Virus record (IMG/VR): IMGVR_UViG_3300037189_006726
Location: 1-30,422 of that record
Reading direction: 5' to 3' (one strand)
Origin: a virus
DNA length: 30,422 bases
Position 1 is the stretch's first letter. Each line of letters starts with the position of its first letter. Below are positions 16,367 to 29,031 of the stretch, one piece after another. The notes below the pieces were generated by a model. That model worked only from the letters and a program-made list of their open reading frames with translations, searched no databases and had not been told where the DNA came from. The position numbers and the translations under genes were made by a program.

Positions 16367-19300
16367 ATGAGTCAACTTATTGATCTAGGAAAATTACGCT
16401 TCCACTTTGCTGGTCAGTGGAGCGCTGGCACTACATACGAATCTAATGATATCGTTAAGTACGGTGGCAATGTATATGTTTATACATTTGCGTTAAAAAC
16501 AGCTGGCGTATTGCCAACAGATACTGCTTATTGGGCCTTAATGGTAGAGGGTTTTAACTTTACTGGCGTCTTTAGCACAACTGGTAATTATAAAGTTGGT
16601 GATGGTGTTGCACACGGCGGTGTTGTGTATGTTGCTGTCAAAGACTCTGTAAATATTACTCCTCCTAATGCTACATACTGGTCACGTTTCCTGGACGGTA
16701 TCCAGTACGAAGGCGAGTATTCAGCAACAACTTCTTATCAAAAGAATGATGTTGTTAAATATGGTGGATCTATTTTTGTTGCAAAACAAGACGGAACAAA
16801 TAATTTACCTACAAATACTGTCTATTGGGACAAGTTTGTAGAAGGTGTTAGCCCTAATGGTATCTATAATGATGCTACTGCATATAAACCAAATGACTTG
16901 GTTGCTTATGGTGCTAACATTTATCGTGCTAAAACAGAAACTACTGGACGCGCTCCAAGTAACACTGGTTATTGGGAACTGTATGTTGGTGGTATTAAGT
17001 TTAATGGTAACTATAGTGCTGTAACTGAATATTATGTGAATGATATTGTTGTTTATGGTAATAATATTTATCGTAGCAAATTAACACAATCTAACACATT
17101 GCCAACAGTTGCCGCAAATTGGGAATTGTTAACCGCAGGTAACAGTTACAAAGGTAACTATGTTAACGCTACTGGATATTTCCAAGGCGATATCGTTAGT
17201 TATGGTGGCAATGTTTATATTGCGCTTGGTGTAACAACTGGTAACTTACCTACTGATGCTACTAAGTGGTCGGTATATAGTTCAGGATTTTCGTATCAAG
17301 GTGCCTGGTCTAGCGCAACTTCTTATAAAATTAACGAAGTTATTGGGTATGGTGGTTCACTGTATCGCGCAAAATCTGATAACCAAAACGTCAATCCTAC
17401 TGTTAGTGCTACTTGGGATAAAATTGTTGCAGGATTTAAAGTTAGCGGACCTTGGTCTACTACTACACAGTATGCAACAGATGAAGTTGTTACCTATGGT
17501 GGTAATACTTATATCTCTATTTTACCACACGCTTCCACAGTATTCGCTACTGACTTAGCTGCTAATAAATGGCAGAAATTTAACAGCGGTATTCGTTGGA
17601 TGGGGCCCTGGGTAAGTACTACACAGTATTATAAAGATGACGTTGTAAAAGCCGGTGCTAGTTCATTTATTGCTAATGAAGACAGTTTAGGCGGTAGTAA
17701 CCCAGCTGGTGGAACAAACACAAAGTGGAGTAGTTTTGCTACTGGTGCTGAAGGGTTCTTGTCTAAAGACGGCGATGCGATGTTGGGTATGCTTACCCTG
17801 TATGCAGCCCCAACAGATCCGTTACATGCAGCTACTAAAGCCTACGCAGATTTATTCTTAAGTCGCACGGCAGGCGGCACAGTTACCGGACCAATAGTTG
17901 CTAGCGGTGTTGCTGCTACGTATACTGCCACAGGCGGTGCTACTATTAATATTAGTGGTGGTAGTTTAAATCTTACAAATAATACAACTCTTACAACTGA
18001 CGGTACTTCTACACTAGGGAATACCCGTGTTAGCGGTGATTTAGATGTTGATGGTGATCTCAATATTGATGGCGGTGATTTAACTGTTAGTGGTACTACT
18101 TTCAACCTTGCAAATACCACAGTTACTACAGTTAATTTGGCTGGTGCTGCTACCGCAGTTAATGTTGGTGCTGCAACTGGTACAACTACTGTTAAGAATA
18201 ACTTAACTGTTGACGGTGATGTGCAAGTTAAGGGCGGTGATATCACCACTAACCAAACAACTTTCAATTTATTAAATAATACAGCTACTACAGTAAATAT
18301 TGCTGGTGCTGCAACTACAGTTGAAATCGGTGCTGCAACTGGTACAACTAATATCAATAATAATGTAGTTATTGATGGAGTACTAGATGTTATTAGTGGT
18401 TCTACAGTTACAAATACAACTGTTGACCCTACTGGCTTTGACAATCAGCATCCTGATACTCGCGGTGTTGTAGAGTTTAGCGATAACGGCACACGTGTTT
18501 ATTCGATTGATAAAAACGGTGATGTTACTGTTCGTGAAAACAGTCAGTTTGCTACTGGCACAGCTTATCAAACTGCAGCAATTGCAAAAACATTGGCGAT
18601 TTTTCCAGCTCCAGGCCAAACAAAATTTGTGTATTGGATCGGTGGTATACGTTACGAGAAAACTACTTTAGTAACTAGTACAGCGTCAAACATTAACGGA
18701 TACAATTATTTCTACTTTAGTGGTGCTTCATTAACAAATGGTACTACACGCAATGACGAGATTTTAACTACAAAAGCAAATGTTGCTGCTGTTCGCGGAA
18801 CTAGTCAAAACAATCGTTCAATATCCGTTGAAGATCAACGACACGGCATCTCAATTGATGGAGCTACATTAGCTTATATCAAACGTGCTGAAGGCATTAA
18901 ATTAGTAAGTGGTCACGGTGTTACACCCGGAACTGTTGGTACAGGTACTTATACTAATACTAAAGCTGGTGAATTACGTGATGCAGATTTAACTATTACT
19001 AGTCCTGTAAAAACTGGTAACAAGTTTTTAGTACGTGATGTTAATGACTGGAAATTAGCAGACAATAACGATAATTTATTAAGTTATAAATTAGGTGTTT
19101 TAAGTGGTGTAACAGTTACTGCTCAAGGTAGCGGTTATAGTGGCTTATCAACTACATTGTCTGTACAAGGTGATGGCGAAGGTGCTACAGTAACTCCAAT
19201 TTTGGCAGGTGCTGCATTACAATCAATTACACTTAATAATGGTGGTACTAACTACGCTAATAACTCTACTGTTACACTTGTTGGCGATGGTACTGGAGCT

Positions 19301-22300
19301 ACGGCAACTATTGTTGTCCCACCAGGTAAAAACGTTGCAAGCGCAGCTATTAATAGTGTTGGTTCACGCTATACTAGCGTAACTGGAACAGTTACAGGCG
19401 GCGGCGGTACAGGTGCTACAGTCGCTATAGCACTCAATTTGGGTACTCCAATTGCTGCAGTTCATATGACTAGTTTAGGTAGCGGATATACAACTGCTAC
19501 TGCTACAATTAACGGTGACGGTACTGGAGCTACTGCATCTGTAACTATTGTTGCTGGCGCTATAACAGACATTGACTTAGTAACTCCAGGTAGCGGATAC
19601 ACTTACGCAACAGTAACTATTACTGGTAACGGCACAGGTGCTGCTGCAACAGTTCATACTCGCAAAAGTACTATTCAAAACTATGAAATTACTAATGTAG
19701 GTAGTGGATATACAAGCAATCCTACAGTAACTATTACTGGTGATGGACACGAAGCTACGGCAACTGCTCAAATTACTGCTGGTGGTGTAACTGATATTGT
19801 CATTACAAATCCTGGTCACGGATATACTTATGCTACTATTACCATTACTGGTGGTGGAGGTACAGGTGCTACTGCTAATGCAGTTCTTAGTGGTTATCCA
19901 TTAGGTTCTATAACTGTTACCAATCCTGGTAAAAACTATACTAGTCAACCAACGTTAGTATTAACTGCTAATCAATATGCTGCTGGTGGAGCTGCTTCGG
20001 TAACGCTAGCACAGGGTAATACTATTGAAAGTATTACTTTAAATAATACTGGTACAAATTATACGTACGCAACAGTACAAGTTAATAGTTCCACAGCAGG
20101 CACAGGGGCTAACTTCACAGTTGCTGCTACACCAAGCGGTATTTTAGGTGTTACAGTTACTAATGGCGGACGTCACTATAGTTATGCAAATATTGTTGTA
20201 ACTGATACTGGCGGAGCCACTGGATTTACTTCAACTACAGCATTGACTCCTGTTCCGCAGTATAATAATTATGTTAATGTTAGTACAGGATACGACACAA
20301 ACAATATTCCAGCAGGAAAATTTACTAATACTTACTTTATGGCAGTATCCAGTACTGACCGTGTTGTTAAGATACCTAGTTCGTACTTATTTGATACAGT
20401 GCGTGAAGCTTTCCAATATGCTGAAAAAGAAATAAAAGAATTACAAACATACGGAATACCTTACGCCAATTATAAATTTTTAGGTGTGTCAGTTATTAAT
20501 GCTGCAGGCGAACTGCAGACTATACCTGATACAAATACAGGAAGTGTGTTATACTATGACTTATTAAATAATAGTATTAATGCAGCTCCGTTAAATCCTA
20601 ATGGTGCAAAAGTTGGTAGATCAATAACTACTGATGCAACTGGTAATGCAACACAATGGTTAGGTGCAACAGAGTCTTCAAAAGTTTACTATGTTGCACC
20701 TCACGGCCGTGACGCAGTTACTAGCGGTAGTAATATGTCTACTCCGTTTGCAAGTATTAAGTATGCCTGTCAACGTGCTGAAGAAGGTGCCACAATTTTT
20801 GTTAAGACTGGAACTTACAGCGAGCAGTTACCGATAACAATTCCTGCAAACGTAGCTATTGTTGGTGATAATCAGCGTACAGTTATAGTAGAACCAAAAA
20901 CTGGTAACAGTGATGATGGTGTTACGCCAAACAATCAATCCTCAATGTTTTTAATGAGTAACGGCTCAATTTTAAACAAAATGACTTTTAAAGGTATGAC
21001 TGGCTGGGTACCAGGTTCAACTCCTAGTGATATTACAACTTCTACAATTAAAGGTGTTGTGGTTCGACTTAACCCTGCTTCACCAATTACACATAAATCT
21101 CCTTATGTTTTGGAATGTTCATTTATTGGTTCAGGCGCTATTGGTGCTTTAATTGATGGTACAGTTCATGCAACTGGTGCTAAAACGATGATTTTCCATG
21201 GATATACTATTATTAATGATAATGGTGTTGGCTATTGGGTTAAAGATGAAGGTAAGGCAGAAATTGTAAGTTGCTTTACTTATTACAATTATTTTGGCTA
21301 CATAGCAACTGGTGGCGGATTTATTCGTGCATTAAATGGTAACAATAGTTATGGTACTTGGGGAGCAACATCACAAGGTTTTGGATCTTCAGAAACCGCA
21401 GTAACTGGTCAGTTATTGGGTAAACAACTTAATTTTGTTTATACTGGTGGTACAATTAATGTAGGCGATACATGTACAAGCAGTGCTGGTGGTACTGGTA
21501 TTGTTACTAACGTACAATATAGTGCTAACAAAGTTTATTTACGAAATACTACTGGTACATTTGCTTTTGGTAACGGTTTAACATTTACCAACGGCGGTAC
21601 AGGTACTGTTAGTGCTGGCGCATTAGAAGACCAAAAAGGTTTTGTGCTGGTAATGAACAACTTAACAGCTGCACCTAAACCAGGACAAAGTATTCAGTTA
21701 ACTGGTGATTCGTTTGCTTATGTTGTGCAAAGTGTTACAGGCACTTATACAAATACCAACAGTGAAATTACAGTCATCCTAGCACAAGAAAAACCAAATG
21801 GTAGCGCTAGCGGTACTGCAGTTACTTTACGTAGTAAGTATTCGCAGATTCGTTTAACGGGCCACGATTTCTTGTCAATTGGTACTGGTGGTGTAGCAAC
21901 TACTAATTATCCAGGTACACCAACACAAGCTGCTGCTCAAGGTAATGAAACAAATGAAATCTTTCCAGGACGTGTATATTATGTAAGTACCGACCAAGAC
22001 GGTAACTTCCGTGTTGGTGAATACTTCCGTATTGACCAAGCAACTGGACGTGCTACACTGAACGCTAACGCGTTCGACTTGGCTGGTTTGACTAGTTTGA
22101 AACTGGGATCTATCGGTGCGCAGCTTGGTGAAACTATTAATGAGTTCTCCAGCGACGTTACTATGAGTGGTAATTCAAATACTGCTGTTCCAACAGAGTA
22201 TGCGGTTAAAACTTATGTAGATAATAATAATGAAATATATTTATCTAATACAATCAGTGTGGATAAATCACTGGCCCCTAATAAGTTAGCATTTAGTATG

Positions 22301-22396
22301 GATACACTTACTATTTCTGGTACGGCAACGTATACTATACAGAACGGTGGATATCATACAATTATGAATCCTTCTGGATTTGCACTTTCAAAATAA
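16367..22396 (+). CDS. Giant multidomain tail fibre (CBM-like repeats, collar motif, beta-helix)
   Basis: A 2009-residue fibre. In order: nine ~46-50-residue repeats (residues ~11-460) of carbohydrate-binding module 5/12-like form (SATTSYQKNDVVKYGGSIF, then a W near the end), a family that binds chitin or similar glycans; a phage-fibre motif DGDAMLGMLTLYAAPTDPLH followed by AATKAYAD (~464-495); beta repeats (~540-680) of T4-cyanophage type (LTVDGDVQVKGGDITTN); ten ~37-residue GSGYT repeats (~907-1290); a pectin-lyase-like parallel beta-helix starting VYYVAPHGRDAVTSGS and GTYSEQLPITIPANVAIVGD (~1438-1660); and a C-terminal module STDQDGNFRVGEYFRIDQAT (~1874 on) known from T4-like cyanophage fibres. 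It should be a very long trimeric adhesin, possibly with polysaccharide-binding or depolymerising ability; catalytic residues cannot be named. Confidence 0.8.
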   Translation: MSQLIDLGKLRFHFAGQWSAGTTYESNDIVKYGGNVYVYTFALKTAGVLPTDTAYWALMVEGFNFTGVFSTTGNYKVGDGVAHGGVVYVAVKDSVNITPPNATYWSRFLDGIQYEGEYSATTSYQKNDVVKYGGSIFVAKQDGTNNLPTNTVYWDKFVEGVSPNGIYNDATAYKPNDLVAYGANIYRAKTETTGRAPSNTGYWELYVGGIKFNGNYSAVTEYYVNDIVVYGNNIYRSKLTQSNTLPTVAANWELLTAGNSYKGNYVNATGYFQGDIVSYGGNVYIALGVTTGNLPTDATKWSVYSSGFSYQGAWSSATSYKINEVIGYGGSLYRAKSDNQNVNPTVSATWDKIVAGFKVSGPWSTTTQYATDEVVTYGGNTYISILPHASTVFATDLAANKWQKFNSGIRWMGPWVSTTQYYKDDVVKAGASSFIANEDSLGGSNPAGGTNTKWSSFATGAEGFLSKDGDAMLGMLTLYAAPTDPLHAATKAYADLFLSRTAGGTVTGPIVASGVAATYTATGGATINISGGSLNLTNNTTLTTDGTSTLGNTRVSGDLDVDGDLNIDGGDLTVSGTTFNLANTTVTTVNLAGAATAVNVGAATGTTTVKNNLTVDGDVQVKGGDITTNQTTFNLLNNTATTVNIAGAATTVEIGAATGTTNINNNVVIDGVLDVISGSTVTNTTVDPTGFDNQHPDTRGVVEFSDNGTRVYSIDKNGDVTVRENSQFATGTAYQTAAIAKTLAIFPAPGQTKFVYWIGGIRYEKTTLVTSTASNINGYNYFYFSGASLTNGTTRNDEILTTKANVAAVRGTSQNNRSISVEDQRHGISIDGATLAYIKRAEGIKLVSGHGVTPGTVGTGTYTNTKAGELRDADLTITSPVKTGNKFLVRDVNDWKLADNNDNLLSYKLGVLSGVTVTAQGSGYSGLSTTLSVQGDGEGATVTPILAGAALQSITLNNGGTNYANNSTVTLVGDGTGATATIVVPPGKNVASAAINSVGSRYTSVTGTVTGGGGTGATVAIALNLGTPIAAVHMTSLGSGYTTATATINGDGTGATASVTIVAGAITDIDLVTPGSGYTYATVTITGNGTGAAATVHTRKSTIQNYEITNVGSGYTSNPTVTITGDGHEATATAQITAGGVTDIVITNPGHGYTYATITITGGGGTGATANAVLSGYPLGSITVTNPGKNYTSQPTLVLTANQYAAGGAASVTLAQGNTIESITLNNTGTNYTYATVQVNSSTAGTGANFTVAATPSGILGVTVTNGGRHYSYANIVVTDTGGATGFTSTTALTPVPQYNNYVNVSTGYDTNNIPAGKFTNTYFMAVSSTDRVVKIPSSYLFDTVREAFQYAEKEIKELQTYGIPYANYKFLGVSVINAAGELQTIPDTNTGSVLYYDLLNNSINAAPLNPNGAKVGRSITTDATGNATQWLGATESSKVYYVAPHGRDAVTSGSNMSTPFASIKYACQRAEEGATIFVKTGTYSEQLPITIPANVAIVGDNQRTVIVEPKTGNSDDGVTPNNQSSMFLMSNGSILNKMTFKGMTGWVPGSTPSDITTSTIKGVVVRLNPASPITHKSPYVLECSFIGSGAIGALIDGTVHATGAKTMIFHGYTIINDNGVGYWVKDEGKAEIVSCFTYYNYFGYIATGGGFIRALNGNNSYGTWGATSQGFGSSETAVTGQLLGKQLNFVYTGGTINVGDTCTSSAGGTGIVTNVQYSANKVYLRNTTGTFAFGNGLTFTNGGTGTVSAGALEDQKGFVLVMNNLTAAPKPGQSIQLTGDSFAYVVQSVTGTYTNTNSEITVILAQEKPNGSASGTAVTLRSKYSQIRLTGHDFLSIGTGGVATTNYPGTPTQAAAQGNETNEIFPGRVYYVSTDQDGNFRVGEYFRIDQATGRATLNANAFDLAGLTSLKLGSIGAQLGETINEFSSDVTMSGNSNTAVPTEYAVKTYVDNNNEIYLSNTISVDKSLAPNKLAFSMDTLTISGTATYTIQNGGYHTIMNPSGFALSK
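16397..17749 (+). repeat. Nine tandem CBM5/12-like protein repeats
   Basis: Coding repeats with pattern W/Y-S-x-x-T-x-Y-x-x-(N/G)-D-x-V-x-Y-G-G-x-x-Y-x-A, each ended by a W in 'YW' or 'KW'. Repeat starts read GQWS, GVFS, GEYS, GIYN, GNYS, GNYV, GAWS, GPWS and GPWV. The protein pattern is strong but the DNA copies have diverged. Confidence 0.8.
19105..20250 (+). repeat. Ten GSGYT-type protein repeats
   Basis: About ten ~37-residue units centred on G-x-x-Y-(T/S/A)-x, in order GSGYSG, GTNYAN, GSRYTS, GSGYTT, GSGYTY, GSGYTS, GHGYTY, GKNYTS, GTNYTY and GRHYSY, separated by 'TITGDGTGATA' strands. They probably stack as a beta-solenoid. One related copy is in the 15371 gene. Confidence 0.8.
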
Positions 22397-22411: not shown

Positions 22412-23383
22412 ATGTCAAAACTTGTAGTAGATACAATACAAAGACCAGGGGGAGCGACATTGTCGTTCCCCGCTGCTGACGGCACAGCGGGTCAATTTTT
22501 AAAAACAGATGCCAGTGGAAATTTAACATTCAGTAATAGTTATACTTTTCCAGAAGTACAGTTACCAATAATTGCCCAAGAAGGTAAAGGTATAGTCGGT
22601 TCTCTAAGTAGTTTTACTGATCGCGCTAACAGCTATAGTTCTCCCGCATGGAACACGTCTGGCCCTAGTGGTAGTGCTTATACTAACTACACAGCTCATG
22701 ATGACCCTAGTTTAATACAGTTTATTAATATGGCATTAGGTGACGGAGTGCCACAAGGTACTAGCGAGTGGTTTATAGGCGATGATGATCGCGGCAGTGG
22801 CTCTAGAGCTTTGCAATTTGCCAACGGCGACCGTTTAGGATATAAACGAGATAGATTTCAATATTCTAATGCTACTTCAAACGGTGGACATACTTTTAGA
22901 ATTATGCCTATCCGTAACACTTCAGCATCAGCTATAAGTGTTAGTTTCTATGCACGAATGTCAGATTACTATTCTTCGGGGTATGAAGGTTGTTGTATGT
23001 TTGTATTAACACCAAATACTAGCACATACAGTACTGTGACTACAGTATCTTCTACTCGACTTTCTTATTCGCAAAGTAGTGGTGATACTAATGGTCCTAC
23101 ATCATATTCAGGCTCACATAGTATTCCCGCAAATACAACAGTATTAGTATGTTTAGCAAGTACTAACTCATATCAAACTACTTATAGATTTAAAGATACA
23201 AATTATTTTTATTATTTAAATACTAGTTATACTTTTGCTAATGCAAATATTGTATGTGATATGCGTATGTTAACCTCATTATACGCCAGTAACTTTAACC
23301 TGCCTAATTCAGGAACCTGTAATGGCACCGGTATTTTAGCTCCTCTTTGGACTAAAACTGCCACTAATTTTGGAGATAGATAA
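22412..23383 (+). CDS. Tail protein, YGDR paralogue 1
   Basis: A 323-residue protein with an AAGGA site 9 bases before its ATG. The N terminus (MSKLVVDTIQRPGGATLSFP, then ADGTAGQFLKTDASGNLTF) is the common attachment module 'MS.L.VD.IQ...G....P..DG..GQ.L.TDG.GNL.F'. The rest (~55-323) is an all-beta domain shared with the proteins at 23791 and 25072: a conserved DR.N.YSS..W stretch, (A/T)IQF.NM.LGDG, GH(T/S)FR..PIRNT, YRFKDTN and CDMRMLTSLY, ending FGDR. I recognise no enzyme motif. Most likely a side-fibre tip or decoration protein. Its last codons hold the GGAG ribosome site of the next gene. Confidence 0.65.
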   Translation: MSKLVVDTIQRPGGATLSFPAADGTAGQFLKTDASGNLTFSNSYTFPEVQLPIIAQEGKGIVGSLSSFTDRANSYSSPAWNTSGPSGSAYTNYTAHDDPSLIQFINMALGDGVPQGTSEWFIGDDDRGSGSRALQFANGDRLGYKRDRFQYSNATSNGGHTFRIMPIRNTSASAISVSFYARMSDYYSSGYEGCCMFVLTPNTSTYSTVTTVSSTRLSYSQSSGDTNGPTSYSGSHSIPANTTVLVCLASTNSYQTTYRFKDTNYFYYLNTSYTFANANIVCDMRMLTSLYASNFNLPNSGTCNGTGILAPLWTKTATNFGDR

Positions 23384-23384
23384 A

Positions 23385-23777
23385 ATGTTTGTAAAATTCA
23401 ATGAACAAAATATGGCAAAAGAAGTTATGGGATTATTGCCACCCACAGAAAATGCAGCAGACTGGACAGTGGTTGATGACGCACTAATGTCGGCTCGCCG
23501 TATTATTAAAGACGGAGATACTATACGTGCTGCAACAGATGCGGAATGTGAGGCTGAATTAGCTACACTTCGTGTCACTGCTGCCGCAAATAAAATGCGC
23601 TGGGAACGTGATCAAGCTTTAGCACTTTCGGATAGTTTAGTGTTACCAGATCGTTTTGCTAAGTTTACGCCCGCTCAACAGGCTAGTATTACTACTTATA
23701 GAGAAGCTTTGCGTAATCTTCCAGAACAAACAGGATTTCCACTTGAGGTTACAATTCCTGGCGCACCAGTACTATAA
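23385..23777 (+). CDS. Tail fibre assembly chaperone-like protein (Phage_tail_APC type) 1
   Basis: A 130-residue protein. I chose the ATG at 23385 rather than the in-frame TTG at 23370 because GGAG at 23372-23375 lies at good spacing. The N-terminal half is an unrecognised acidic domain; the C-terminal ~60 residues (MRWERDQALALSDSLVLPDR, then TYREALRNLPEQTGFP) fit the tail-assembly-chaperone module 'R..RD.LLA.SDW..LPD......YR.ALRDLP.Q.GFP'. Such proteins help fold or attach fibres. It sits between paralogues 1 and 2 of the YGDR family, so its client may be one of these. Confidence 0.7.
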   Translation: MFVKFNEQNMAKEVMGLLPPTENAADWTVVDDALMSARRIIKDGDTIRAATDAECEAELATLRVTAAANKMRWERDQALALSDSLVLPDRFAKFTPAQQASITTYREALRNLPEQTGFPLEVTIPGAPVL

Positions 23778-23790
23778 TAGGAGTTAGAAT

Positions 23791-25071
23791 ATGTCAAAGA
23801 TTATAGTAGACCAACTACAAAAACTAACGGTACCTAGCAGCCCTAGTGTGCTTACGGTTACTAATTCGGGTACAAGTGCTTATACTATTAATTCAGCAAG
23901 TAACCCAACACTAACTTTAGTTAGAGGTTCTACTTATACCTTTAACGTAAATGCATCTGGACACCCTTTTCATATACAAACAGTAAATAGTGCTTATAGT
24001 TCTGCAGATGTCTATACTAGTGGAGTAACTAATCCAGGAGCATCTGTAGGTACTATAACTTTTACAGTACCTAATGGAGCTCCCAATACTTTATATTATG
24101 TTTGTCAAATGCATGCAGCAATGCGCGGAACAATTAACGTAATTGATAATACTGCTGCAGCATTTAATATTCCTGCAACAGATGGAACTACTGGTCAGTA
24201 TATGAAAACTGATGGTAGTAGGAATTTGGGATGGGCCAGTATGACGTATACAGGACCCCAAGTCTTAACAGCAATACCTGTACCAGAAGGCAAAGGTATT
24301 ATAGGTAGTGTTACTACTCACAGTGATCGTCAAAATACTTATTCTAGTGAAGAGTGGACAAGCAGCGGTCCTTGGACTACTTTTTACAACTACGCAATTC
24401 ATGCAGATAATCATGCTATTCAGTTTTGGAATATGTTTTTAGGTGATGGATACGCTAATCGAACTGATACTACTACTGATTATATGCTGGGCGGAGACTC
24501 TGAACACCAATTTGCAAGAACAATACAGTTTGCAAGCGGTAAGCGTTTAGGGTATGCCAGAGATTTTATGCATTGGGATAACGCTACTAGTTATGCGGGA
24601 CATAGCTGGAGAGTTATACCTGTACGTAATACTACTGGATCGCCAATTACAGTTACTATCTCAGCAAGAGCAAGTGATAATGGCGGATCATATGAGGGTG
24701 CTTGTTTAGCAGTATTTGAACCTAATACTACTACATATAGCACAGTTACAAGTGTTACAGGAACTTCGGTTGCCACTTTTCAAAGCCAAGTTCAAAATCA
24801 AAATTTAACTGGTACTTATACTATACCTGCAGGTAAAACTGTGTTAGTATGTTTGGCTAGTACTGACTGTTACATGACTACTTATCGATTCCGTGATACA
24901 AATTTCTTTTATAACCTAGATACGTTATTTCCTACAGGCGTTATTTGTGATATGCGTATGTTGTACAATTTACATAGCAGTAGATTTACAGATATAGCTT
25001 ATACTGGTAGTTTTACCCCACAAATTTCAGCTATTTGGAAACAATGTGCAGTTAACTATGGAGACAGATAA
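23791..25071 (+). CDS. Tail protein, YGDR paralogue 2, with N-terminal cupredoxin-like domain
   Basis: A 426-residue paralogue of the 22412 protein with ~100 extra residues after the first 12. These residues (~20-118) look like a cupredoxin: TLTLVRGSTYTFNVNASGHP, a beta region, then TLYYVCQMHAAMRGTINV. The possible type-1 copper ligands are His58, Cys105, His108 and Met111, with Cys-X2-His-X2-Met spacing as in amicyanin. I know similar inserts in tail proteins of marine T4-like phages but not of any proof that they bind copper. The remaining ~300 residues keep the paralogue blocks (QFWNMFLGDGY, GHSWRVIPVRNT, YRFRDTNFF, CDMRML) and end in YGDR. Ribosome site AGGAG. Confidence 0.7.
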   Translation: MSKIIVDQLQKLTVPSSPSVLTVTNSGTSAYTINSASNPTLTLVRGSTYTFNVNASGHPFHIQTVNSAYSSADVYTSGVTNPGASVGTITFTVPNGAPNTLYYVCQMHAAMRGTINVIDNTAAAFNIPATDGTTGQYMKTDGSRNLGWASMTYTGPQVLTAIPVPEGKGIIGSVTTHSDRQNTYSSEEWTSSGPWTTFYNYAIHADNHAIQFWNMFLGDGYANRTDTTTDYMLGGDSEHQFARTIQFASGKRLGYARDFMHWDNATSYAGHSWRVIPVRNTTGSPITVTISARASDNGGSYEGACLAVFEPNTTTYSTVTSVTGTSVATFQSQVQNQNLTGTYTIPAGKTVLVCLASTDCYMTTYRFRDTNFFYNLDTLFPTGVICDMRMLYNLHSSRFTDIAYTGSFTPQISAIWKQCAVNYGDR

Positions 25072-26034
25072 ATGTCAAGAATTTTTGCTGATCAAATACA
25101 AAAACCTAGTGGAACTGTCTTTAGTTTACCCGTAGGTAATGGAGCTAACAATCAATTTATTCAAACTGACGGGCAAGGTAACTTAAGTTTTGAGAATCCT
25201 GTAATTTACGAACCAGGTTCAAGTTGGTTAGTTGCCCCCGAAACTGCCTATAACATTGGTACTGTAGTTTCACACAGTGACCGCCAACAAATCTATTCAA
25301 CAGGTGAGTGGGGCTCAAGTAGTTCTTGGACTACTTATAATAATTCTGAAATACACACTGACAATAGCGCTATTCAATTTTGGAATATGTTATTAGGAGA
25401 CGGATATAGTAACGCAAGTGCTACTACTGAGCGTATGCAGGGTGGCGATACAGAACATGAACTACCTCGCAGAGTACAGTTTGCAAATGGTAATCGTGTA
25501 GGATATAGACGCGACGTATATCACTATGATAACTCAACAGGCTATTCTGGACATAGTTTTAGATGTTTACCCATCCGTAATACTAATAGTAGCAGTGTTT
25601 CTGTAAGTGTAACTGCTGTTGTATCAAATTATTGGGAAAATGGATATGAAGGAAGTTGTTTAGCTTCTTTTGTTCCTACTGCTGGTAAATATAGTGCAGT
25701 TACTAATGTAACTGGAACAAAAATGGCTAATTTAACCAGTAGTAACAATACTAGGGCAAAAGAAATAACGGGGTCGGTAACTATTCCTGGTAATACAACT
25801 GCTTTAATTGGATTAAGTAGTACTGATTGGTATGAAACTACCTATCGGTTCAAAGACTGTAATATGTTTACTAAATTACATGAAACTTTTACTGGAACTA
25901 GCGGAGTAATTTGTGATATGCGTATGTTATCACATTTGCTTCGTGGAAGACCTCTTATGGCTTCTTCAGGAGCATTAGCTGGTAATTTACCAACACTATG
26001 GACAACTTGCGCAACCCAGTACGGAGATAGATAA
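25072..26034 (+). CDS. Tail protein, YGDR paralogue 3
   Basis: A 320-residue paralogue, closest in layout to the 22412 protein: N-terminal module MSRIFADQIQKPSGTVFSLP and NQFIQTDGQGNLSF, then IQFWNMLLGDGYSN, GHSFRCLPIRNT, YRFKDCNMF and CDMRMLSHLL, ending in YGDR. It starts directly at the stop of paralogue 2 (GATAA then ATG) and uses a GGAG site formed by the GGA GAC codons of that protein's YGDR ending. No insert is present. Function as for the paralogues: a virion beta-structured protein, partner unknown. Confidence 0.65.
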   Translation: MSRIFADQIQKPSGTVFSLPVGNGANNQFIQTDGQGNLSFENPVIYEPGSSWLVAPETAYNIGTVVSHSDRQQIYSTGEWGSSSSWTTYNNSEIHTDNSAIQFWNMLLGDGYSNASATTERMQGGDTEHELPRRVQFANGNRVGYRRDVYHYDNSTGYSGHSFRCLPIRNTNSSSVSVSVTAVVSNYWENGYEGSCLASFVPTAGKYSAVTNVTGTKMANLTSSNNTRAKEITGSVTIPGNTTALIGLSSTDWYETTYRFKDCNMFTKLHETFTGTSGVICDMRMLSHLLRGRPLMASSGALAGNLPTLWTTCATQYGDR

Positions 26035-26420: not shown

Positions 26421-27347
26421 ATGACAATTCTAAACAGAGTTTCTTCTCCAGTTATACTAGCTTCCCCGTCAGGATCTGGGGCTGATGAAGTAGTAGCACC
26501 CCCAGGACAAGCATTATTTGGCACTAATACTGGCAGCGGCACTTTTAGCTGGACAGTTCCTGCTGGCGTTAAAAGTATTAGCGCAGTAGCTGTAGGTGGT
26601 GGTGGTGGTGGTCCTTATATCTGGGCTTATGCAGGTGGTTGTGGTGGTGGACTAGGCTGGAAAAATAATATTTCGGTTCAACCAGGTCAATCAGTTACTG
26701 TTCAGGTAGGTGCTGGCGGTAATCACTGGAGTTTTGGTGCCAGTCCAGGAGGTGTAAGCTATGTAATTGGTAGCGATGTTGTTCGTGGTGGTGGTGGTTC
26801 CTCAGGAGATAGCGGTTTTTCACAAACTGGTACCTATACCGGTGATGGTGGCGGAAATGGTGGAACTACTGGTTTCTTTGCCTCACCAGGCGGCGGAGCT
26901 GGCGGCTATACTGGTGCTGGCGGTAATGGCGGCAGTGCAAGTTCTAGTTTTGGCGGTGGCGGTGGCACTTTTTATAGTAGTTTTGGCGGCAGTGGTTCAG
27001 GCGGTGGCGTTGGATTACGTGGTACTCAAGTACCGCCTGCTGGTTTCGGAAGCTCAACTGTTTACTTTTACAGCCCTTACAGCGGATATACTAGCTATTC
27101 TGGTTTTGGTAATGGCGGTGGCGGTGGTGCAGGTGGCGGTGGCAATGGTGACCATGGCCAAAGTCCATGGACTAGTTTTGGACCTAATGGAGTACATGCC
27201 AAAGGCGGTATTTACGGTGGCGGCGGCGGCGGTTCAGGTACTCACGGATTTAGTGGATATACTGGCGGTCCTGGCGCTCAGGGTGGTTGCCGTATTATTT
27301 GGGGCAAAGGCAGGGAATTTCCCGGCACTTTAACTGATGATATTTAA
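26421..27347 (+). CDS. Glycine-rich tail adhesin (gp38-like polyglycine type)
   Basis: A 308-residue protein with a short beta domain (SGTFSWTVPAGVKSISAVAV) followed by glycine-rich blocks from residue ~53 to ~290, such as GGGGGG, GGGNGG, GGGAGG, GGGGGAGGGG. Between them lie short aromatic or serine-rich loops (FYSSFG, YSGYTSYSGFG). The C terminus is GCRIIWGKGREFP. This design is like the T-even gp38 adhesin and other phage fibre tips, in which stacked polyglycine helices display variable loops that bind the receptor; a close relation to gp38 is not claimed. The ending 'RIIWG.GR.FP' is common in marine phage tip proteins. A likely receptor-binding protein. The long reading frame in another frame (26767-27333) is a shadow of the GGN repeats. 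Confidence 0.72.
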   Translation: MTILNRVSSPVILASPSGSGADEVVAPPGQALFGTNTGSGTFSWTVPAGVKSISAVAVGGGGGGPYIWAYAGGCGGGLGWKNNISVQPGQSVTVQVGAGGNHWSFGASPGGVSYVIGSDVVRGGGGSSGDSGFSQTGTYTGDGGGNGGTTGFFASPGGGAGGYTGAGGNGGSASSSFGGGGGTFYSSFGGSGSGGGVGLRGTQVPPAGFGSSTVYFYSPYSGYTSYSGFGNGGGGGAGGGGNGDHGQSPWTSFGPNGVHAKGGIYGGGGGGSGTHGFSGYTGGPGAQGGCRIIWGKGREFPGTLTDDI

Positions 27348-27351
27348 AAAC

Positions 27352-27837
27352 ATGAAATTATATATTAAACTTGACGGAAGCGGTGGTGTTATAAATCACC
27401 CAATGCAATTTGAATCTGCACAAGTCAGCGTAAGTTTTCTTTTAAATAAAGAAGCTGGATCAGTAACTGAAGAAGAAATATTAGCAAATTATTTTGCAGT
27501 ATTTGAAAATCCTGCAATTGATGTTGCCGAAGAAGTTATTAGCGATAACGGGTACAAACAACTGCCTAATGGTAATTGGACTAGAAATCTTGTTTTAAAA
27601 AGTTTAACACAAAAAGAAAAAATAGATAAGTGGGTTCGCGGTGTTCGTGATCACAGATTATATGTTAGTGACTGGTCACAATTATCAGATAATGAATTAA
27701 CTGATAAAGAACGTGCTAAATGGACAGAGTATAGACACTATCTAAGAAAAATGCCTGAAATATATGCAGATGTAACACATCCCGAAGAAATAGTATGGCC
27801 AGAACCTCCACTGCGTAAACCATTACCTAAAGTTTGA
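27352..27837 (+). CDS. Tail fibre assembly chaperone-like protein (Phage_tail_APC type) 2
   Basis: A 161-residue protein starting MKLYIKLDGSGGVINHPMQ, the opening typical for this family ('MK.YVKLD.DG....HP'). An in-frame ATG at 27337 overlaps the previous gene; neither start has a good ribosome site, so the start is uncertain and rests on the family N terminus. The C-terminal ~65 residues (VRDHRLYVSDWSQLSDNELT, then WTEYRHYLRKMPE and IVWPEPP) match the tail-assembly-chaperone module. This module is paralogous to the one at 23385. Its place right after the glycine-rich adhesin, like chaperones after fibre tips in other phages, suggests that adhesin as the client. The heme oxygenase ATG follows two bases after its stop. 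Confidence 0.75.
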   Translation: MKLYIKLDGSGGVINHPMQFESAQVSVSFLLNKEAGSVTEEEILANYFAVFENPAIDVAEEVISDNGYKQLPNGNWTRNLVLKSLTQKEKIDKWVRGVRDHRLYVSDWSQLSDNELTDKERAKWTEYRHYLRKMPEIYADVTHPEEIVWPEPPLRKPLPKV

Positions 27838-27839
27838 AA

Positions 27840-28361
27840 ATGACTACATTAAAAGAATTAACACATAAAAATCATGTGTTAGCTGAACAACATAGTTTTA
27901 CAAAATTGTTGTTAAGTGGCAAGATACCTAGTGGTATTTATGCCACTTTTTTAGCTAATCAACTACTACAGTATCAAACACTAGAACATTGTGCACACCA
28001 CTTATTGGCACAAATTCCAGGATTAGCTCGTAGTGAATTGATTATGCAAGATGTACTAGATTTAGATGAGCCTGTAATCTTTTTTGATACAACAGCTAAT
28101 TATTGCAATCATGTTAAACAACTAAATGACCATGATTTGTGGGCACACATATATACAAAACATATGGGTGACTTATATGGTGGACAGATTATTAAAAAAT
28201 TAATTCCTGGTAGTGGTTTAATGTACGAATTTAATAACAGAAAATTAATGATAGATGAACTAAGAACTCACTTAGATATTTCAATGGCAGATGAAGCAAA
28301 CTATAGTTTTGAATTTGCAATAGAATTATTTGACAGGATTGCTGATGAGTACAATCTTTAA
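27840..28361 (+). CDS. Heme oxygenase (biliverdin-forming), compact phage type
   Basis: A 173-residue protein of the HO-1 family, which oxidises heme to biliverdin IXalpha, CO and Fe2+ in the cytoplasm using electrons from ferredoxin. The N-terminal THKNHVLAEQHSF aligns with the 'AT(K)xxHxxAEN..F' helix and gives His12 as the proximal heme ligand. YTKHMGDLYGGQIIKKLI (residues 105-122) is the distal helix GD(L)xGGQ motif, with Gly110, Asp111, Gly114 and Gly115. At 173 residues it is shorter than cyanobacterial enzymes (about 240), but both heme-contacting motifs are intact. I chose ATG 27840; the TTG at 27834 is in frame but inside the previous stop region. No good Shine-Dalgarno is visible, so coupling to the preceding gene is likely. 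It overlaps the bilin reductase gene by 17 bases. Confidence 0.93.
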   Translation: MTTLKELTHKNHVLAEQHSFTKLLLSGKIPSGIYATFLANQLLQYQTLEHCAHHLLAQIPGLARSELIMQDVLDLDEPVIFFDTTANYCNHVKQLNDHDLWAHIYTKHMGDLYGGQIIKKLIPGSGLMYEFNNRKLMIDELRTHLDISMADEANYSFEFAIELFDRIADEYNL

Positions 28362-29031
28362 TAAACTAAAACGGCACGCTGCAGAAATGGAAAACATTAT
28401 CAGTACGCGTGCTTTTTTACTGGACAGTGGTGATAATTATAGTTGGGTAAATAAAGTATATAAATGTGCTTGGTTTCGTAGAGCGCATATGGATATTATA
28501 GATGCTATTGATACTAAAAAATTGTATATGATGCATATATGTGTATTTCCGCACGTATATGATAGTGCACCACTTTATGGTTTTGATATTATAGCTGGCA
28601 CAAATAAGGTAACTGGTGCATTTTTAGACTTTAGTCCTGTTGGTAATGCAGAACATCCACTGTGCAAATATTTTACGGAATTAGTTGAAGGTACTCAGTG
28701 GTCAAAGCCACGAGAACTGCCTGAATGGGCACGTAATATTTTTAGTAAACATATGGTAGCTGCTGGAAATATTAACACAGATTTTGAACTGGACGTTGTA
28801 TTAGAATTGTCTAAAAAATCACTATTACATTACATAGACAATATTAAAACGCACAGACCTGCAATGACCTATGATGATCAAGTTAAAAAGTATAACTTTA
28901 CTGATCAACAAAATTATTATTGCCAACAACAAAAACAGAATCCACATACTCCTAGAGTATTAAAAGGATTAGGTTTCACAGAGGAAATGGCACATGATTT
29001 TATACATAAAGAGTTATTTCCAGAAATATGA
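28345..29031 (+). CDS. pcyX: Ferredoxin-dependent bilin reductase, PcyX-type (predicted phycoerythrobilin synthase)
   Basis: A 228-residue protein of the FDBR family (PcyA, PebA, PebB, PebS, PcyX), which reduces biliverdin IXalpha with electrons from ferredoxin. HICVFPHVYDSAPLYGFD (residues 64-81) matches the PcyA stretch 'HCVMFPRPEYDLPMFGCD', placing His64 and Asp81 at PcyA His88 and Asp105 with the same 17-residue spacing. FLDFSP and the C-terminal YYCQQQKQNPHTPRVLKG match 'I(A)DLSP' and 'NYC..QQQN.KTRRVL'. PcyA's catalytic Glu76 (in HLE) corresponds to Asp50 (in HMD), as in the PcyX group. PcyX makes phycoerythrobilin, so that is the inferred product. Near the C terminus, PcyA's Asp220-Lys221 is replaced by Pro200-His201. 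I chose the ATG at 28345 because AGGA (28335-28338) is six bases upstream, not the TTG at 28330. PcyA alignment is from memory. Confidence 0.88.
   Translation: MSTIFNKLKRHAAEMENIISTRAFLLDSGDNYSWVNKVYKCAWFRRAHMDIIDAIDTKKLYMMHICVFPHVYDSAPLYGFDIIAGTNKVTGAFLDFSPVGNAEHPLCKYFTELVEGTQWSKPRELPEWARNIFSKHMVAAGNINTDFELDVVLELSKKSLLHYIDNIKTHRPAMTYDDQVKKYNFTDQQNYYCQQQKQNPHTPRVLKGLGFTEEMAHDFIHKELFPEI

Follow-up and report, generated by a model that had tools for sequence, protein, structure and literature searches.

Cupredoxins, the phage protein family PHROG 677 and structural iron in phage tails are all already known. A typical cupredoxin of the plastocyanin/azurin superfamily (PF00127) is a secreted electron carrier: amicyanin is the electron acceptor of methylamine dehydrogenase, and rusticyanin and AcoP of Acidithiobacillus are single-domain carriers of acidophiles. 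In phages, PHROG 677 ('baseplate wedge tail fiber connector', gp9 of cyanophages) ends in a domain of approx. 110 aa that bears no cupredoxin name in PHROGs or Pfam. Iron-bearing tail fibres have been proposed for T4 gp37, for marine fibres with HxH motifs and for alterophage R22Y (PMC11705849).

Among the open-access papers that we searched, none describes a cupredoxin domain in a phage tail or a virion with a type-1 copper site. The present analysis concerns a 30,422-nt stretch of DNA from an aquatic phage (IMG/VR record IMGVR_UViG_3300037189_006726, positions 1 to 30,422), referred to below as the window. Relative to that literature, the new elements would be the recognition of the PHROG 677 C-terminal domain as a predicted copper-site cupredoxin, the finding that it exists with and without ligands, and its employment in phage tails as a module.

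Results

The window contains a lambda-like tail module (tape measure, NlpC/P60+J and tail assembly chaperones), followed by genes for heme oxygenase and bilin reductase (Table 1). The NlpC/P60–J protein is apparently a fusion of two tail-tip genes that are usually separate. The two chaperone genes are related to each other and are interleaved with the genes of three paralogous tail proteins. The adjacent heme oxygenase and bilin reductase genes correspond to the hemO-pcyA/X cassette described for aquatic phages (PMC11480375); the nearest phage relative of the bilin reductase occurs in Pelagibacter phage Mosig (43%).

Table 1. Coordinates of the features discussed (positions in the window)
Feature	Position	Strand	Basis or remark
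NlpC/P60 domain, then lambda J-like central tail fibre, 1229 aa	1929-5618
2009-aa protein	16367-22396		several CBM_5_12 carbohydrate-binding module matches, best near N terminus
Paralogous tail protein without the domain	22412..23383	+	BLASTP, 46% vs aa 122-426 of the 426-aa protein
Phage_tail_APC tail-assembly chaperone	23370-23777
Tail protein, 426 aa, with inserted cupredoxin domain	23791..25071	+	ORF list, translation, PHROG 677 match, tail-gene surroundings
Cupredoxin domain, aa 19-120	23845..24150	+	AlphaFold model, Foldseek, family profile
His58, predicted equatorial Cu ligand, GHPF motif	23962..23964	+	invariant in A3; all-or-none with Cys105 and His108
Cys105, predicted Cu thiolate ligand, only Cys of the domain	24103..24105	+	translation, A3 alignment, copy counts
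His108, predicted equatorial Cu ligand	24112..24114	+	translation, A3 alignment, copy counts
Met111, predicted axial Cu ligand (Gln in one bacterial copy, L097)	24121..24123	+	A3 alignment
Paralogous tail protein without the domain	25072..26034	+	BLASTP, 46% vs aa 121-426 of the 426-aa protein
Phage_tail_APC tail-assembly chaperone	27337-27837
Heme oxygenase	27834-28361		PF01126, E 6e-17
Ferredoxin-dependent bilin reductase	28330-29031		PF05996, E 1e-24

An inserted domain in one of three paralogues

The 426-aa protein is probably a receptor-binding or adhesin-type tail protein, a role deduced for its C-terminal part. Its two paralogues align with it only from aa 121-122 onward (BLASTP; E about 1e-80 to 1e-86), in agreement with the preliminary description of this DNA, according to which both sister proteins lack the domain. 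At the N terminus the three proteins have in common an MS[KR] peptide with IQ or LQ at its end, and the extra residues (approx. 110 aa) are placed in the linker between this peptide and a conserved segment resembling GQxxKTDGxxNL. Their location between two segments common to the paralogues supports an insertion; of the earlier proposal that the domain had been inserted at one N terminus, the position therefore stands, while the direction of the event is one that we infer. The same position of the domain was observed in approx. 10 distinct IMG/VR relatives, whose C-terminal parts are 60-91% identical, which indicates that the insertion is older than the phage studied. Purifying selection acts on both the domain and the C-terminal part of the protein, and among close relatives the ligand codons differ by synonymous changes alone. 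The homologous region spans about aa 19-120 (23845-24150), slightly more than the extent first given for the domain (23845-24144).

The predicted fold

An AlphaFold2 model of the domain, based on 31 aligned sequences, had a pLDDT of 97.4 and a pTM of 0.88; the full-length protein, modelled from a single sequence, had a pLDDT of 32.6. The best 50 matches of the domain model in a Foldseek search of the PDB were all cupredoxins, and 92 matches had E <= 0.001. Rusticyanin (E 5.7e-6) was the best of these, AcoP reached E 2e-5, and the others included three-domain copper nitrite reductases (CuNiR), laccases, other multicopper oxidases, plastocyanin and a pseudoazurin with an engineered amicyanin loop; the TM-scores against PDB cupredoxins were moderate (about 0.5-0.7). 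As in cupredoxins, Cys105 terminates a strand (82-87 in domain numbering), and His108 and Met111 lie in the loop preceding the last strand. The geometric check suggested earlier, a clustering of the four ligands in the model, was addressed indirectly: their placement in the secondary structure and the fold matches are in accord with it. The cupredoxin fold, for which structure prediction or a fold search had been suggested as a check, is thus borne out by this model and by its closest PDB matches. These predictions support the assignment of the domain to the cupredoxin superfamily, as a Greek-key beta-sandwich with a predicted type-1 ligand set.

A profile built from an alignment of 34 diverse phage and bacterial copies (A3) matched PDB sequences of CuNiR (E 1.3e-5), plastocyanin (E 1.1e-3) and amicyanin (1sfd, E 4.5e-4; 1aac, E 0.003), and a small profile-profile test, confined to five Copper-bind proteins, gave a probability of 65%, which does not decide the matter on its own. 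A single-sequence phmmer search of the PDB returned only a weak cutinase match. The Pfam model Copper-bind (PF00127) scored 14.6 bits against a cut-off of 21.2 (E 0.047; profile positions 19-98 of 99), and the models DUF4352 and At5g54830 outscored it, yet also remained below their cut-offs. The NCBIfam amicyanin model TIGR02657 had no match to the 426-aa protein at E 0.01. Taken together, the sub-threshold PF00127 score and the unmatched TIGR02657 model indicate a member of the cupredoxin superfamily that is not an amicyanin. The original reading, a cupredoxin-like domain with amicyanin-type ligand spacing, is supported by the predicted structure, the fold search, the profiles and the conservation of the ligands; the nearest folds are not that of amicyanin but those of rusticyanin, AcoP and the CuNiR domains.

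The ligand residues

Translation of the gene confirmed the reported order of residues, His58 followed by Cys105-X2-His108-X2-Met111. Only eight columns of A3 are invariant (G28, F33, H40, P41, Y85, C87, H90 and M93 in domain numbering), and the four predicted ligands account for half of them, although identity between the phage copies and the bacterial ones is only about 50%. As far as sequence conservation can tell, the ligand set is well beyond chance, given these columns and the purely synonymous changes in the ligand codons. Within HPFH, conservation across the domain family does not extend to the second His. The C..H..M pattern is present in 180 of 181 intact copies; 174 of the 181 have a single Cys, which argues that this residue does not serve an internal disulfide. 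Among the intact sites the axial residue is replaced in a single case, a bacterial copy (L097) with Gln instead of Met, and Gln is the natural axial residue in stellacyanin.

The copies were collected in three scans. The first two used patterns that contained the ligands, and the near-100% ligand conservation that they gave is biased; the third, based on the ligand-free pattern GTITFTVP, exposed many ligand-free copies. Among the 241 distinct full-length copies, His58, Cys105 and His108 were all present in 182 and all absent from 54, whereas one of them was present in 5 and two in none. If the columns were independent, about 131 mixed copies would be expected instead of the 5 observed, a contrast that is inflated by sequence relatedness. 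When the ligand columns were left out of the tree, the ligand states needed about 8 changes, of which well-supported branches alone force only 2, and ligands appear to have been lost at several places. In one protein (L045/L050) a ligand-free copy (Q/S/Q) stands alongside an intact one. Such co-retention and co-loss of His, Cys and His fits a metal site, and we read the pattern as that of a putatively obligate site, dropped as a unit by several lineages which kept the fold.

There is a large sister group of ligand-free copies (L220, L080, L250, L276 and about 50 more IMG/VR copies), with Asn, Ser, Asp, Leu and similar residues at the ligand positions. In many cases these copies belong to virion structural proteins (phrog_10938), where they occupy approx. 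aa 170-300.

This sister group is a copper protein fold turned structural. The occurrence of ligand-free copies in virion proteins shows that phages can benefit from the fold by itself, with no need of a metal. Since the scaffold alone suffices elsewhere, it may be argued that the metal adds something where the ligands are kept.

A second sub-class of the domain, with HPI or HPL, was represented by L022 (4649-4915), by S-TIM5 (L327) and by bacterial proteins of the PS1 clade (L082-L107). The L022 copy has a Cys-X2-His-X3-Met loop. In PS1/OCS116 bacteria one copy of each sub-class is present, in tandem, within a single protein.

Distribution of the domain

Homologues were detected by tblastn in 354 of 50,697 phage records, nearly all of them cyanophages; the domain is also present in many IMG/VR contigs. 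The match to PHROG 677 covers aa 15-119 (E 1.1e-25; profile positions 302-410 of 412), and the domain therefore equals the unnamed C-terminal part of this family. The ligands are intact in phage proteins annotated as tail fibre-like (P-SSM2), gp9 (S-SSM5, P-TIM68) and minor tail protein (S-N03), and fold matches in BFVD include proximal tail fibres and gp9 connectors. Far from being peculiar to one fibre, the domain is a module, widespread but unnamed, that occurs in the tail and baseplate proteins of phages and mainly in those of cyanophages. In S-CREM2, for which a virion proteome has been published, it was absent from the parts covered (42-106.5 kb and 128-174.9 kb).

In phage proteins the domain is repeatedly found next to a subtilase (peptidase S8) domain or in fusion with one (L016; L321 of S-SCSM2R; ACG-2014e and ACG-2014h in BFVD). 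The same fold was also found, with E about 1e-8, in 'Beta-sandwich proteins' of pitho- and marseilleviruses (BFVD A0A481Z6J5, A0A481YVH3 and others).

Bacterial homologues occur in Flavobacteria, Myxococcota, Acidobacteriota and alphaproteobacteria. They have the appearance of lipoproteins, of surface proteins on a stalk and of anchored proteins, their export being judged by eye from the sequence. This apparently exported or surface setting would be oxidising and copper-accessible, and it counts for a copper site. The gene neighbourhoods of the flavobacterial relatives gave no functional hint.

Discussion

We consider it likely that the domain is a cupredoxin with a complete predicted type-1 site, inserted in one of three paralogues, and, with less confidence, that it acts as a copper-locked rigid tail module. 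The virion would be assembled with an empty site, the cytoplasm being reducing and copper-poor, and a copper ion would be captured once the cell has lysed or on arrival at the surface of a host. The bound metal would then lock the sandwich into a rigid, protease-resistant module decorating the tail, near the N-terminal and probably virion-proximal end of the adhesin, where it could support docking or adhesion. Of all the steps in this explanation, what the copper is for is the least certain.

A copper-holding rigid accessory module is favoured over redox chemistry. It seems unlikely that, when the phage meets its host, the site exchanges electrons with a partner on the host surface or in the periplasm, for instance as the trigger of a conformational step or as a way of tapping the electron transport of the host. 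Type-1 sites are indeed electron-transfer sites, the proteins with the nearest folds (rusticyanin, AcoP and the CuNiR domains) are electron-transfer proteins, and the phage has redox genes in its repertoire, those for heme oxygenase and the ferredoxin-dependent bilin reductase. However, the products of the bilin genes work in the cytoplasm and have no link to the domain, no redox partner is known, the domain is part of an extracellular tail protein without a cofactor chain, and ligand-free versions persist in other virion proteins.

Two further explanations are less probable than electron transfer, and about equally so. The first, a purely structural beta-sandwich whose ligands are kept by descent or packing and hold no metal in life, is consistent with the retention of the domain in the ligand-free sister group and with the frequent recruitment of beta-sandwich modules by phage tails. 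It does not readily explain why three residues, one of them distant in sequence, are kept or lost jointly (5 mixed copies vs about 131 expected), nor why the ligands are invariant between phage and bacterial copies that differ at about half of their positions. The second is copper acquisition, with virions acting as a 'copper Trojan horse' or copper ligand that brings copper to the host or exploits copper-uptake receptors. Picocyanobacteria are copper-sensitive, and the domain is abundant in their phages. The idea also parallels the iron/HxH proposal for tail fibres (PMC11705849), but no receptor link was found, and a tight, slow-release site would be a poor delivery vehicle.

Slightly less probable still is the occupation of the site by another metal (Zn, Fe or Co), or by copper only adventitiously. 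His2Cys(Met) sites take Zn and other metals in vitro; against this, the combination of a cupredoxin fold, CX2HX2M and a His upstream of it is the classic copper set, and axial Met/Gln variation is typical of blue copper proteins. Finally, a captured host plastocyanin gene (petE) kept as an auxiliary metabolic gene is hardly credible: cyanophages do carry petE and one homologue (S-SCSM2R) is labelled PetE, but the domain is distant in sequence from plastocyanin and lies within a tail protein, without a signal peptide and at a position fixed in approx. 10 relatives, and a petE origin was rejected on this architecture.

A wider extension of the copper-locked module is more doubtful than the module itself: aquatic tailed phages, including many T4-like cyanophages, might possess functional blue-copper tail centres for metal- or redox-dependent host recognition or infection, several lineages having since lost the copper and kept the fold.

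The analysis suggests an identity for the unnamed C-terminal domain of PHROG 677, and raises the possibility of copper in phage particles. Should the metal indeed be bound, cyanophages with known sequences would, by the hundreds, be bearers of copper proteins, with consequences for marine trace-metal speciation and for the copper sensitivity of adsorption, and the finding would bear on the recruitment of enzyme folds by phages as tail modules. The natural copies with and without ligands constitute ready-made controls.

Comparison with known systems

With the cupredoxins in general, the phage domain has in common the predicted fold, the His...Cys-X2-His-X2-Met ligands, the strand order and the ligand loop. 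It differs from them in its score below the PF00127 cut-off, in the GHPF context of the first His and in being part of a tail protein. The Cys-X2-His-X2-Met loop is shared with amicyanin, which is also aligned by the family profile; however, the domain has no methylamine dehydrogenase context, and none is expected near a tail module. Rusticyanin and AcoP are the best fold matches, yet they are only 15-25% identical to the phage domain, which, unlike these carriers, is built into a tail protein.

Iron in the HxH fibres (T4 gp37, R22Y) provides a precedent for a metal ion in a tail fibre, as proposed here for copper, but it is held by HxH motifs, repeated along a trimeric fibre, and the fold and ligands are unrelated to those of the cupredoxin domain. 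The direct homologue is the C-terminal part of PHROG 677, which has kept the ligands in gp9 of S-SSM5 and P-TIM68; there the domain is C-terminal in another parent protein, whereas in the 426-aa protein it is N-terminal.
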